Position numbers and translations under genes: made by a program. DNA of 38,101 nt from Sporichthya brevicatena (lineage in GTDB: Bacteria > Actinomycetota > Actinomycetes > Sporichthyales > Sporichthyaceae). The notes beneath the pieces were generated by a model. It was not told where the DNA came from. It made no database searches and saw only the letters and a list, made by a program, of their open reading frames with translations. Where the stretch lies: positions 10,228 through 48,328 of the forward strand of contig NZ_BAAAHE010000012.1 of the NCBI RefSeq assembly GCF_039525035.1, read 5' to 3'. Positions 9,292-30,228 of the stretch are shown piece by piece. How positions within the stretch are numbered: the stretch's first letter is position 1; the number at the start of each line of letters is the position of its first letter.

Positions 9292-9333
9292 TTACAACAA
9301 CACCTGTGAGTGTTACAACAACACCTGTTAGTG
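9292..9333. promoter_or_regulatory. two tandem 21-bp direct repeats, likely operator
   Basis: Two head-to-tail copies (9292-9312 and 9313-9333) share the core TTACAACAACACCTGT followed by G or T and AGTG; they differ at one base in 21. The period of 21 bases equals two helical turns, so two dimers could sit on the same DNA face. GTGTT (9310-9314) and AACAC (9320-9324) form an inverted repeat across the junction. They lie between the divergent TetR and phosphotransferase genes. Confidence 0.6.
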
Positions 9334-10640: not shown

Positions 10641-10655
10641 CGGTTTCCCGAAGGG

Positions 10656-10736
10656 TGGCAGGTCCAGGATTCGAACCTGGGTAGCTTTCGCGACGGATTT
10701 ACAGTCCGCTCCCATTGGCCGCTCGGGCAACCTGCC
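10656..10736 (-). tRNA. tRNA-Tyr (GTA)
   Basis: Read on the minus strand, the acceptor arms GGCAGGT and ACCTGCC pair over seven bases with discriminator A at 10656. The anticodon stem GCGGA/TCCGT encloses the loop CTGTAAA, giving anticodon GTA. A long variable arm (about 13 bases) marks a class II tRNA, as bacterial tRNA-Tyr has. The T arm is CCAGG-TTCGAAT-CCTGG. The 3' CCA is not encoded (ACCC follows). Confidence 0.95.
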
Positions 10737-17257: not shown

Positions 17258-17590
17258 ATGACCGAGCAGATCGAGGCGGCCTACGCGCCCCCGGCCCCCG
17301 TGCGGCCCGCCCCGGTCCACGCCGTCCCCGCCGACCGCGCCGACCGCGAGCACCTCCGCCGCGCCCGGGCCGCCTACGAGGCGAAGCTGTCCCGCCTGCG
17401 GTTCTACTCCTACTGCCTGACGCTGACCTCGTGCGTCCTCGCCCTGATGTCGTTCATGTACCTCGCCCAGGGCGCCGCCGACGGCGACCCCACGTTCACC
17501 TGGCTCGGCGTCGGCTTCGTCGCCGCCACCGTCACCGCCCTGTGGGCCGCCGTCCGCATCACCCACGCCGGCGAGTTCGCCGCGACGTAG
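17258..17590 (+). CDS. small two-helix membrane protein, hypothetical
   Basis: Hypothetical protein of 110 residues. A Pro/Ala-rich N-terminus (APPAPVRPAPVHAVPAD) leads into a charged helix REHLRRARAAYEAKLSRLRF, then two membrane segments: YCLTLTSCVLALMSFMYLAQ (about 53-72) and TWLGVGFVAATVTALWAAV (about 81-99). The short C-terminus is probably cytoplasmic. I recognise no family. ATG 17258 has AGGGGAG just upstream. It is divergent from the metallopeptidase gene and immediately followed by the 52-bp repeat array. Confidence 0.7.
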   Translation: MTEQIEAAYAPPAPVRPAPVHAVPADRADREHLRRARAAYEAKLSRLRFYSYCLTLTSCVLALMSFMYLAQGAADGDPTFTWLGVGFVAATVTALWAAVRITHAGEFAAT

Positions 17591-17620
17591 GGGCTCTCTC
17601 GCCGCCCGGGTGCCGCGTAC

Positions 17621-17800
17621 TCCCGAAAGCGCACTCCAGCACCCCAATCGCCCGATCCACAGTGCTTTCGTCTCCCGAAAGCGCACTCCAGCACCCCAAT
17701 CGCCGGATCCACAGTGCTTTCGTCTCCCGAAAGCGCACTCCAGCACCCCAATCGCCGGATCCACAGTGCTTTCGTCTCCCGAAAGCGCACTCCAGCACCC
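17621..17800. repeat. 52-bp tandem repeat, cluster 1 (four copies)
   Basis: Copies begin at 17621, 17673, 17725 and 17777 with an exact 52-base period; the last is cut short after about 24 bases. Each starts TCCCGAAAGCGCACTCCAGC and ends near ATCCACAGTGCTTTCGTC. The copies are almost identical. Each junction holds the hairpin GCTTTCG-tctcc-CGAAAGC (for example 17664-17682). Because 52 is not a multiple of 3 and the copies are interrupted in no frame-preserving way, this is not coding. Positions 17801-17965, between the clusters, are unrelated GC-rich sequence without a recognisable gene. Confidence 0.9.
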
Positions 17801-17965
17801 TGCGCACCCCGGCGCCGTGTGCTCACCTGCCCCCACTGCGCAGATCAGCACCGGCCGGCGCGCAGCCAGCCGGGCCCATCTGCGCACTCAGCGCACCTCG
17901 GCACTCGCCCCGCCGGAACTCGCCGCGGCCCAGAGCACATCCTCGCCGCGCCGGCACTCCTCTCT

Positions 17966-18248
17966 CCCGAAAGCGCACTCCAACACCCCAATCGCCCGAT
18001 CCACGGTGCCGCGCTCTCCCGAAAGCGCACCCCAGCACCCCGAACGCCCGACCCACAGTGCCGCGCTCTCCCGAAAGCGCACCCCAGCACCCCGAACGCC
18101 CGACCCACAGTGCCGCCCCCTCCCGAAAGCGCACCCCAGCACCCCGAACGCCCGACCCACAGTGCCGCGCTCTCCCGAAAGCGCACTCCAGCACCCCAAT
18201 CGCCCGACCCACGGTGCCGCGCTCTCCCGAAAGCGCACTCCACCACCC
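17966..18248. repeat. 52-bp tandem repeat, cluster 2 (six copies)
   Basis: Copies begin at 17966, 18018, 18070, 18121, 18173 and 18225; the period is 52 except one 51-base step. The three central copies share a variant (GCACCCCAGCACCCCGAACG) while the outer ones resemble cluster 1 in their first half. The 3' half is changed from AGTGCTTTCGTC to AGTGCCGCGCTC or GGTGCCGCGCTC, which removes the junction hairpin of cluster 1. Both clusters end in the same CACCCTGCGCACC flank, which suggests one arose from the other. The array ends about 50 bases before the 3' end of the PD40 gene. Confidence 0.9.
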
Positions 18249-18302: not shown

Positions 18303-19319
18303 TCAGCAGACGATCGGGGGCTGACCGAACAGTTCCCGGACCAGCGTGGTCGCGGGGTCCCCGCAGGGGGCCTGGATGCCGGGTCCCGGGGCGGGCGCCG
18401 AGAACGGGTCGGGAGCTCCGGTCGAGCCGGGACCCCACGCCGCCTGGGTGTCGCCGCGGTCGTTGTTCGTGAGCCGGACGGCGGTGAACGGCGGGGTCAG
18501 CGCCATCAGGTAGAGCTCCTCGTCGCCGTCCCGGTCGCTGTCGAAGACGATGCGGGTGCCGTCGGGCGAGAACGCGGGAGCGGCGTCGAAGGCGGCGTCA
18601 GAGGTCAGCTGCCGGGGGTTGCGGCCGTCGACGTCCATCAGCCAGATGTCGGGGCTGCCGCCGATCGTGCTCGTGTACGCGATCGTCCGCCCGTCGGGTG
18701 AGAACGCGGCCTCGGTGTCGAACGCGAGCGTCTTCGTCAGCCGGGTGGCCGGGCCGCCGGCGGCGTCCATGACGTAGACGTCGGCGTTGTCGTTGCGCAG
18801 GCTCGTGAAGGCGATCCGGGTGCCGTCGGGCGAGAACGTCGGCTTGTAGTCCGTGCTCGGGTGGGTCGTCAGCCGCTGCCGGTTCCGGCCGTCGACGTCC
18901 ATCACGTAGATGTCGGAGTTGCCGGCCCGCAGACCGGCGAAGACGATGCGCGTGCCGTCCGGCGAGAACGACGGGTCGATCGAGGGCAGGTCGCCGGGCG
19001 TCAGCCGGGTCAGGCCCGTGCCGTCGACGTTCACCAGCCAGAGATCGTCGGTCCCGGCGCGGTTGCTCGCGAAGACGACCCGGCTCCCGTCCGGCGAGAA
19101 CGCGGGCGAGGCGTCCCGGCCCGGGTCGTGGGCCAGCGGGACCGAGCGCCCCGACGCGACGTCGGCGACGAACAGTTCGGGGTTCCCGTCCCGGTCCGCC
19201 ACGAACGCGATGCGCCCGTCACCGGATCCGGCGGTCGGGACCGCCGCCGCCGGCGCCGCGAGTGCGCCCCCGACGATGCTCAGAACGAGCGCGCCGAGGG
19301 CACCGCGACGGGTTCTCAC
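18303..19319 (-). CDS. secreted TolB-like PD40 beta-propeller protein
   Basis: Exported protein of 338 residues. The signal peptide is MRTRRGALGALVLSIVGGAL with a cut after APAAA (about 26). Six repeats of the PD40 propeller motif follow, each with AFSPDG-x-RIVF and a 'D-x-W/Y-x-M-D-V-D-G' strand (for example FSPDGSRVVFASNRAGTDD, then DLWLVNVDG). This is the TolB C-terminal type of beta-propeller, used for protein or ligand binding. The end has a Pro-rich stretch and two Cys (IQAPCGDP, PPIVC). No enzyme motif is seen. The GTG at 19319 follows TAGCGT by six bases (leaderless). The crotonase gene lies 20 bases upstream on the same strand but this gene has its own promoter box. Confidence 0.85.
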   Translation of the reverse strand: MRTRRGALGALVLSIVGGALAAPAAAVPTAGSGDGRIAFVADRDGNPELFVADVASGRSVPLAHDPGRDASPAFSPDGSRVVFASNRAGTDDLWLVNVDGTGLTRLTPGDLPSIDPSFSPDGTRIVFAGLRAGNSDIYVMDVDGRNRQRLTTHPSTDYKPTFSPDGTRIAFTSLRNDNADVYVMDAAGGPATRLTKTLAFDTEAAFSPDGRTIAYTSTIGGSPDIWLMDVDGRNPRQLTSDAAFDAAPAFSPDGTRIVFDSDRDGDEELYLMALTPPFTAVRLTNNDRGDTQAAWGPGSTGAPDPFSAPAPGPGIQAPCGDPATTLVRELFGQPPIVC

Positions 19320-28961: not shown

Positions 28962-29440
28962 CGCGCCTCCGCATCCGGGCGGGCCGCACCGCGGTCGTCG
29001 CCGCCGTCACCGCCGGCGCCCTGCTCTCGACCGGCACCGCCTTCGCCTACTGGAAGGCCACCGGCTCCGGCTCCGGCACCGCGAAGGTGGGCGTCGGTCA
29101 GACCATCCGCGCCAACGCGGTCACCCCCGCCACCGGCCTGCTCTTCCCGAGCACGACGCCCAACGGCAGCCTGGCGCTGACGTTCACCACCCCGGTGAAC
29201 GCACTCGTCACCGGCATCGCCAAGGACCCCGCCCGTCCGGTGATCAGCAGCGTCACCGGTTGCGGAGCCTTCCTGGACATGCCGGCCGTCACCGGGCTCA
29301 GCATCGCCGTCACGGCCCCGGGACCGTCGCCGGTGACGACCCTGCCGAACCGGGTCCGTCTGCTGATGGACACCCCGGCGAACTGCCAGGGCGCCACCTT
29401 CACGATCCCCGTCGTGCTGACCACGCAGGAGACGCCGTGA
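28958..29440 (+). CDS. exported surface protein 3, AFA-YW signal end
   Basis: Exported protein of 160 residues. The signal peptide [20 protein letters not shown] continues to TGTAFA, and the mature chain begins [15 protein letters not shown], the same boundary and Gly/Ser-rich start as in proteins 1 and 4. The body is beta-rich: [40 protein letters not shown] and the end [20 protein letters not shown], with two Cys at places that match the Cys pair of protein 1. No anchor or membrane segment follows, so it should be secreted or held by other subunits. The ATG at 28958 and the GTG of the next gene both overlap neighbouring stops by four bases. Function unknown. Confidence 0.75.
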
Positions 29441-30228
29441 ACCGCCGCTCCCTCGTCGTCGCGGGCGTCGCCGCGACGGTCGTCCTCGGCACCGTCGCCC
29501 CGGCGTTCGCCTACTGGACCCTGACCTCCCACCCCGAGTCGACGGGAGGGGCCGCCGCGGGCACACTCGCCGCTCCGGTCGTCCAGGTCGACCGCACCGG
29601 CCAGGGCTCGAACATCAAGGTGCACTTCCGGATCGTGTCCGTGCCGGGCCAGCTGCCGACGACGTTCAGCGTCTCCCGCCAGGGCAACAGCGGCGGGTAC
29701 GCCCCGCTCGACGGCTGCATGGACGTGCCGGTCACCGAGACCTGCACGTCGACCGACAGCGCGAACAACGGCAACCAGCACTACCGGATCTTCGCCACGG
29801 CCGGGACGTACTGGAAGTCCTCGGACGCCATCTGCGACTTCCAGAACTCGCAGGACGTCCTCGCCAACACGTCCGTGAACTGCTCCGTGTTCACCTACGT
29901 GCCGCCCGCCGCGCCGGTCGCGCCGCGGATGGCCGGCCCCGCCGCCGCGGAAGACCTCTCGACCCCGGCACCCACCCCCACGCCGGAGCCCAGCCCGACC
30001 CCGAGCCCAACCCCGAGCCCGACCCCGAGCCCGACCCCCACGCCGACGCCGACCCCGACGCCGGAGCCGACGCCCACCCCGACCCCGACCCCGACGCCGG
30101 AGCTCTCCCCTGGGGCTCCGTCGACGCCGGTCGTGGAACCGGAACCCCCGGTGGCGGCCCCGGCGGAGGAGTCCGTGGCCGGCACGGAGCCGGAGGTCGC
30201 ACCGGAGGATCCGCCGACCGCAGGCTGA
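29437..30228 (+). CDS. exported surface protein 4, AFA-YW signal end and Pro-Thr tail
   Basis: Exported protein of 263 residues. The signal peptide ends VAPAFA before [18 protein letters not shown] fibronectin/Ig-like beta domain follows ([40 protein letters not shown]) with four Cys (about residues 94, 102, 133, 149). From about 178 the chain is low-complexity [13 protein letters not shown] type, some 45 residues of Pro alternating with Thr, Ser or Glu, then an acidic end [13 protein letters not shown]. Such tails usually span the cell wall, yet no LPxTG or membrane helix is present. The start GTG 29437 overlaps the stop of gene 3. It closes the cluster and is followed by the long hairpin at 30260. 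Confidence 0.75.
29971..30102 (+). repeat. Pro-Thr coding microsatellite
   Basis: A run of CCNACN/CCNAGC codons (mostly CCGACC, CCGAGC) encoding alternating Pro and Thr/Ser/Glu in surface protein 4. The 6- and 12-base periods make it prone to slippage in steps that keep the frame, so its length may differ between strains. Confidence 0.7.

Follow-up and report, generated by a model that had tools for sequence, protein, structure and literature searches.

What is a strictly periodic, non-coding repeat doing in the gap between two convergent genes of Sporichthya brevicatena, and from what is it built? The repeat lies in the window, i.e., the whole stretch of 38,101 nucleotides analysed here (G000:C12:10228-48328 of the 5.2 Mb source genome G000), and it was compared with the sister genome G001, with G002, which like G001 belongs to the same genus as G000, with G003 of the same family, and with further genomes named below. 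The answer that we consider rather probable is that the array represents the tandem, head-to-tail form of a short dispersed palindrome belonging to a nuclease–palindrome system, in which the nuclease would drive the spread of the palindrome.

Anatomy of the array and its dispersed palindromes

The sequence CTCCCGAAAGCGCAC occurs ten times in the window, starting at positions 17620, 17672, 17724, and 17776, and again at 17964, 18016, 18068, 18120, 18172, and 18224, with steps of 52, 52, and 52 bp, one of 188 bp, and five of 52 bp. Eight of the ten units are full, while those at 17776 and 18224 are truncated after approximately 22 bases (Table 1). TRF returned a period of 52 for both clusters (17620-17800, 99% match, score 355; 17962-18248, 93% match, score 476), bearing out the ten copies in two clusters with a strict 52-base period described in an earlier note on this DNA, with a start at 17620 instead of 17621. 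The same note had regarded the array as non-coding, and this holds: the array fills the gap between the stops of two convergent genes, as called with a simple custom codon-usage caller, and a protein-coding array was ruled out by the period of 52 and by the lack of a called gene across it (mechanical open reading frames do span it). The near-identical units of cluster 2 are three consecutive ones (18016, 18068, and 18120), in agreement with the homogenisation of its central copies that had been proposed. The junction hairpin (GTGCTTTCG/CGAAAGCGCAC), said to mark cluster 1 and to be lost in cluster 2, indeed folds in cluster 1 (z −3.9, 1 of 200 shuffles being equally good) and is weak in the cluster-2 unit (z −0.5), but the stem that matters is the inner one, since it is in register with the solo palindromes described below.

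Table 1. Features of the array region and the tRNA gene, with positions in the window.
Feature	Position	Strand	Description	Basis
Cluster 1	17620..17775	+	three full 52-bp units of family A, each with the left arm, the loop, and the inner right arm of the 57-bp palindrome	TRF + unit positions
Truncated family-A unit	17776..17800	+	left arm only, passing into the B module	TRF + unit positions
Family-B 58-bp palindrome	17833..17890	.	core TGCGCAGATCAGCACC 17837-17852, right arm CTGCGCACTC 17880-17889	bounds set by hand from solo B copies (B motif + inverted arms)
Cluster 2	17964..18223	+	five full 52-bp family-A units, outer right arm altered to CCGCGCTC/CCGCCCCC	
Truncated family-A unit	18224..18248	+	passing into a partial B-like flank	TRF + unit positions
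Upstream neighbour gene	17258..17590	+	110-aa protein; convergent with the downstream gene; identifies the orthologous site of G001 and of contig L042 from a Sporichthya MAG	
Downstream convergent gene	18303..19319	-	132-bp internal repeats	
tRNA-Tyr (gta)	10654-10736	-		Rfam search

Rfam at gathering cut-offs returned the tRNA only over the whole window, and a search for plasmid relatives of the array found none. The 132-bp repeats of the downstream gene likely correspond to beta-propeller-like blades, as judged by eye. Other repeats in the window are a low-complexity 12-bp/6-bp tandem repeat (29960-30103) within the called gene 29437-30228 and a 21-bp AT-richer repeat, TTACAACAACACCTGTGAGTG (9292-9333), whose two copies are 95% identical and which is odd for a high-GC window.

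When a 78-nt array probe was compared with the genome, it matched the array itself and two short places elsewhere, and nothing more. Counting the unit in the genome and its relatives, a check suggested earlier, showed that the full 52-bp unit is confined to this array within the genome, its left arm being dispersed elsewhere. Specifically, the left arm agrees with solo palindromes over 22 of 22 bases at G001:2904986 and 2080412 and over 25 of 26 bases at G000:C44:97721. The short matches, like others with a single mismatch to the 15-mer CCGAAAGCGCACTCC, proved to be arms of complete palindromes with the layout TCCCGAAAGCGCA - variable - CAC - loop (often ATTTTGCTTTC) - GTG - variable - TGCGCTTTCGGGA, which we refer to as family A. 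The CGAAAGCGCA core is found in 62 distinct palindromes, of which 37 measure 57 bp and 22 measure 58 bp; 59 of the 62 are thus exactly 57 or 58 bp despite freely varying loops. A 58-bp relative of A (the 58-class) forms a third palindrome family in the genome. Out of 60 palindromes whose location was determined, 55 are intergenic and 5 lie within a called gene. An A-type covariance model built from twelve palindromes identified 23 distinct places in G000, 19 in G001, 29 in G002, 14 in G003, and 0 in G004 (hand-counted from match listings), and gave one weak match in 55 further genomes. We also weighed a conserved stem mismatch (G:G or C:C) and dropped it, as it is frequent without being universal among the palindromes.

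The array unit retains approximately positions 1–44 of the 57-bp palindrome, with the outer right arm missing or degenerate, and each following left arm starts 5 bp ahead of the expected palindrome end. In 0.73 of cells, the inner stem of the array units pairs at i+j=58, which is the register of symmetry of the full 57-bp palindrome; the 21 other registers reach 0.41 at most. The full palindrome covariance model had no match in the window at E<=1, the left arm and the inner stem being all that the two have in common.

The spacer between the clusters holds a 58-bp palindrome of the second family, B (with TGCGCAGATCAGCACC at 17837). The B motif was counted 16 times in G000, 42 times in G001, and 3 times in G002, with 0, 0, and 1 matches of the reversed-pattern control, and a few of the two-mismatch rows in these counts resemble chance matches in genes. 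Solo B palindromes, measured by hand, are 58 bp long, and B tandems have a period of 53, with i+j=59 as the register of the inner stem (0.73 of cells paired, while the 25 other registers reach 0.53 at most); the tandem period therefore equals the palindrome length minus 5 in both families (52 from 57, 53 from 58). Both clusters of the window run, as had been noticed, into similar TGCGCACC-type sequence, but this common flank is the family-B module, so that the duplication of the whole array once put forward is needless as an explanation, a mosaic of two modules being the likelier one. At the orthologous site, G001 likewise carries a mosaic of A and B modules, the same 52-bp and approximately 165-bp modules following one another in an order that differs from that of G000. 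The sole relative of the upstream 110-aa gene found in GTDB contigs belongs to a Sporichthya MAG, where the orthologous site in contig L042 (taken as the same contig as G002:C373) carries one complete palindrome approximately 45 bp past the stop of the gene. A further short palindrome, TGGAGATGACATCTCCA or near, is clustered by B elements (L171, L201, and L217) and flanks the nuclease-family gene of L171 (G000:C25).

The nuclease gene between inverted palindromes

Several palindromes are paired approximately 1.1 kb apart in inverted orientation, with one gene of approximately 300–315 aa between them, some 26–45 bp from the palindromes, and both the A and the B family flank such a gene in this manner, as does the 58-class; all three families also occur as solo copies, mostly intergenic. 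The flanked gene matches REase MTES_1575 (PF18741), with an E of ~1e-7 for two of the three tested that does not reach the curated cut-off, and, weakly, DUF559 (PF04480). The PF18741/MTES_1575 domain is termed a novel Vsr-REase in PMC3710099. Up to 14 PF18741 matches were found in a single genome.

An AlphaFold model (42 sequences, pLDDT 95.9) consists of two parts. Residues 1–177 adopt an AbiEi antitoxin fold (6y8q, Z 12.6, rmsd 5.5 over 170), and residues 182–287 a nuclease fold resembling I-Bth0305I (3r3p, Z 12.6, rmsd 2.6 over 96) and Vsr (1cw0, Z 10.2, rmsd 2.7 over 101), which belong to the group named EDxHD nucleases. The acidic residues E185, D218, and D245 are present in 42 of 42 members and E229 in 39; further conserved residues are R248 (40/42) and H235 (33/42). 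The PADLOC AbiEi model matches 40 of the 42 members, and candidate defence models match many members of the family. Matches to MenT/nucleotidyltransferase and mitoribosomal structures were set aside, covering the same regions at lower Z. The predicted protein is thus a fusion of an AbiEi-antitoxin-like fold to a nuclease of the Vsr/I-Bth0305I type, whose acidic residues are conserved. Compared with the AbiEi antitoxin of the AbiE type IV toxin–antitoxin systems, which according to PMC7319586 binds inverted repeats in its promoter in an autoregulatory manner, the protein differs in that the AbiEi-like half is fused to a nuclease domain. Similarly, it shares its predicted C-terminal fold and its conserved acidic residues with EDxHD/Vsr nucleases such as the homing endonuclease I-Bth0305I and Vsr, whereas the gene is bracketed by palindromes, lies outside introns, and is not a mismatch-repair gene.

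When 23 proteins of five related genomes were placed in a tree, the nucleases associated with A, B, and the 58-class fell into separate groups (support 100/100 for A and B, 97/95 for the 58-class). The B group has members in G000 and G001 only, both of which are rich in B motifs; no B nuclease was found in G002, where the B motif count is 3 (control 1). Within the 58-class, G000 (5/5), G001 (6/6), and G003 (2/3) have CGTACG as the inner arm and G002 has GCAGG (7/8), and the flanks of the 58-class nucleases in G000, G001, and G002 match the inner-arm type of their own genome. As far as sequence comparison goes, palindrome type was shown to follow nuclease clade and species.

Some individual genes deserve mention. 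Relative to G001 L101, the family-B nuclease of G000 (L102, G000:C20:25820-26662) is shortened in frame close to the C-terminal end of its nuclease domain, and it may be inactive because part of this end is missing. G000, with the shortened B nuclease, has fewer B motif matches than G001 (16 vs. 42). A same-family nuclease gene, G000:C12:49837-50556, is located outside the window approximately 21 kb from the array, and its likely G001 ortholog (L116) has CTTCACCAGCC-type flanking repeats.

Recurrence of the layout across Actinobacteria

The upstream and downstream flanks of nuclease-family genes from 28 genomes were compared in inverted orientation. The sample was taken from 22 homolog rows and ~140 further rows; 71 genes were tested, and one duplicate (L129=L148) was dropped. 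Helicase-fused or long frames (L117-L128, L135), contig-end loci (L103, L109, L115, L130, L141), and duplicates (L139, L142, L143) were omitted, as were rows whose sequences had not been retrieved. The first 31 genes were tested before the next 40, mostly standalone frames with flanks unseen, were chosen. A control set including related genomes had a maximum of 48.6, and cross-genus pairs were used in its place.

Among the resulting 70 genes, which were hand-picked instead of random and include orthologs and so are not 70 independent cases, 44 had inverted flanks that scored beyond the 99% level, and 40 beyond the 99.9% level, set by 2100 mispaired controls drawn across genera, and at least one significant gene was present in 23 of the 28 genomes. 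By comparison, the same-locus control (upstream flank vs. inside of the gene) exceeded the level in 3 of 70, and the first 31 genes, when set against 100 mononucleotide shuffles, gave 20 of 31. The downstream arm starts at most 60 bp from the stop codon in 42 of the 44, and folding was better than in shuffles (z < -2) for both arms in 25 and for at least one arm in 36 of them. No significant inverted flanks were detected in 26 of the 70 genes, including 5 of the 8 tested in G007 and 4 of the 6 in G051.

The flanking palindromes vary from gene to gene. Two palindromes of distant families proved to be dispersed and specific to their genome: the G043 palindrome occurs at 17 places in G043 and at none in 10 of 11 other genomes, the eleventh having a 23-base match (E 0.009), while the G007 palindrome occurs at 5 places in G007 and at none in 11 others, including its congener. 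Stretches at similar coordinates to the G007 palindrome sites in this congener, G051, are non-syntenic. The layout of a gene between inverted palindromes recurs across Actinobacteria with different palindrome sequences.

Mechanism and competing explanations

Whereas the earlier note listed a small-RNA source, binding of nucleoid or replication proteins, and a recombination hotspot as candidate roles, the comparisons link the repeat instead to dispersed palindromes that have a cognate nuclease gene. We observed the anatomy and register of the array, its two palindrome families, their flanking of the gene, the generality of this layout, and the co-variation with the enzyme; given this association, the most economical reading would be that the nuclease spreads the palindromes. 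The AbiEi-like half would bind the arms of the inverted repeat, by analogy with AbiEi at its own promoter, and the nuclease half would nick or cut in or near the palindrome. Repair would then copy the palindrome into new intergenic places and at times lengthen it into a tandem whose period (52, 53) falls 5 bp short of the palindrome length. The array of the window would have grown after a palindrome was placed between the two convergent genes, the relative having kept a single palindrome. When five G000 copies were compared with G001, those at C20:18629 and C24:80584 were absent, those at C10:20538 and C15:122262 were shared, and that at C44:97682 was unalignable. No transposition event, target-site duplication, or precise insertion junction was seen, and C20:18629, the one clean absence, lies in a stretch diverged around the element. 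Weighing against this reading are also the 26 genes with no significant inverted flanks, the limited match of the array units to the full palindrome, the placement of solo copies next to convergent stops described below, and the shortened B nuclease of G000.

These features are best read as those of an actinobacterial system that resembles REP/RAYT but is driven by an unrelated nuclease. As in REP/REPIN elements with their RAYT (TnpA-REP), short palindromes of enzyme-specific sequence are scattered between genes and form tandem or mosaic clusters, and the enzyme gene lies between two inverted palindromes, as found for 44 of the 70 genes here and as PMC2817692 describes for the RAYT gene. In contrast, the enzyme here combines a predicted AbiEi fold with a Vsr-like nuclease, whereas RAYT is a Y1 (HUH) transposase, and a search for the Y1 transposase PF01797 (RAYT) found it in 0 of 11 genomes (controls scored in 5 of 14). 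The palindromes are ~57–61 bp long in the families measured compared with 20–40 for REPs, and they occupy ~5–30 places per genome, whereas REPs number hundreds, more than 100 copies being usual according to PMC2817692. The GTAG/GTGG or CGTC foot tag is mostly absent, lying within 12 bp of the foot in 8 of 61 palindromes. Our verdict is that the system works like REP–RAYT but is not a member, the transposase not being found and the foot tag being mostly missing.

An alternative that we regard as unlikely takes the palindromes as bidirectional terminators or RNA-stability hairpins, with the flanked nuclease being coincidental, the AbiEi half using the upstream copy as an operator, and the array being a slipped terminator. 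Placement agrees with it: outside the nuclease-gene loci, 23 of 39 copies lie between convergent genes, as do 18 of the 136 gaps between genes that measure 60 bp or more (P 3e-8), and solo copies are situated mostly 10–45 bp from convergent stops, far over the baseline. Additionally, RNA folding is strong (z -9), and AbiEi-type proteins autoregulate via inverted repeats in the account of PMC7319586 cited above. The excess between convergent genes (23/39 vs. 18/136) indicates that insertion or retention favours gene ends, and a terminator function of the solo copies is possible. However, copies on either side of one gene share family-specific sequence that changes between genes, palindrome sequence follows nuclease clade and species, the length is fixed at 57/58 bp while the loop varies, and no T-run follows the stem in the copies inspected by eye.

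It is quite unlikely that the enzyme serves in repair or defence by acting on hairpins or cruciforms, with the palindromes being recognition or decoy sites that selection keeps and the enzyme does not spread. Such a role is compatible with the Vsr and Holliday-junction-resolvase-like folds found in the structure matches and with the AbiEi and candidate defence models that match many members, but a gene bracketed by its own inverted sites, solo copies elsewhere, and species-wide sequence turnover form the pattern of a self-propagating unit.

Very improbable is a derivation from MITE-like relics moved by another transposase, with the nuclease genes as passengers. MITEs are short, non-autonomous inverted-repeat elements of fixed length, and the inverted-repeat structure, fixed length, and intergenic dispersal of the palindromes are similar. 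Against this, flanks of differing sequence go together with this single gene family in 23 of 28 genomes, the cognate gene is not a transposase, and the Y1 transposase (PF01797, the only transposase family searched) was absent in 11 of 11 genomes. At the single alignable absence mentioned above, where the flanks had diverged, no target-site duplication was seen.

An ordinary tandem repeat born of replication slippage and unrelated to mobile DNA is hardly credible: the strict period and homogenised copies fit slippage and gene conversion, which may explain the copy number, but the left arm, the inner-stem register, and the B module are all those of dispersed families, G001 and L042 carry other forms of the same element at this site, and the shared 22–26 base arms and common register would have to be chance.

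Returning to palindromes spread by the nuclease, the recurrence of this gene-and-palindrome layout in relatives, with different palindromes, suggests a form of small selfish DNA that has yet to be described, and searches of open-access full text in PMC found no prior description of the gene–palindrome pairing. A broader proposal, on which we are evenly balanced, is that a large, as yet undescribed class of palindrome-propagating mobile elements in Actinobacteria is driven by AbiEi-fold/Vsr-type nucleases, each gene moving and maintaining its own palindromes, as a RAYT does for its REPs, via homing-like cutting and repair instead of single-strand HUH chemistry, with the tandem form (period = length - 5) as a by-product. 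To our knowledge, REP-like repeats have so far been tied to one enzyme class. If the proposal is true, the use of the same architecture by another enzyme unrelated to the first would represent convergent evolution of palindrome-based selfish DNA, the multi-copy 'DUF559 / AbiEi-domain' genes would gain a function, and every such genome would offer a simple, testable protein–DNA pair.
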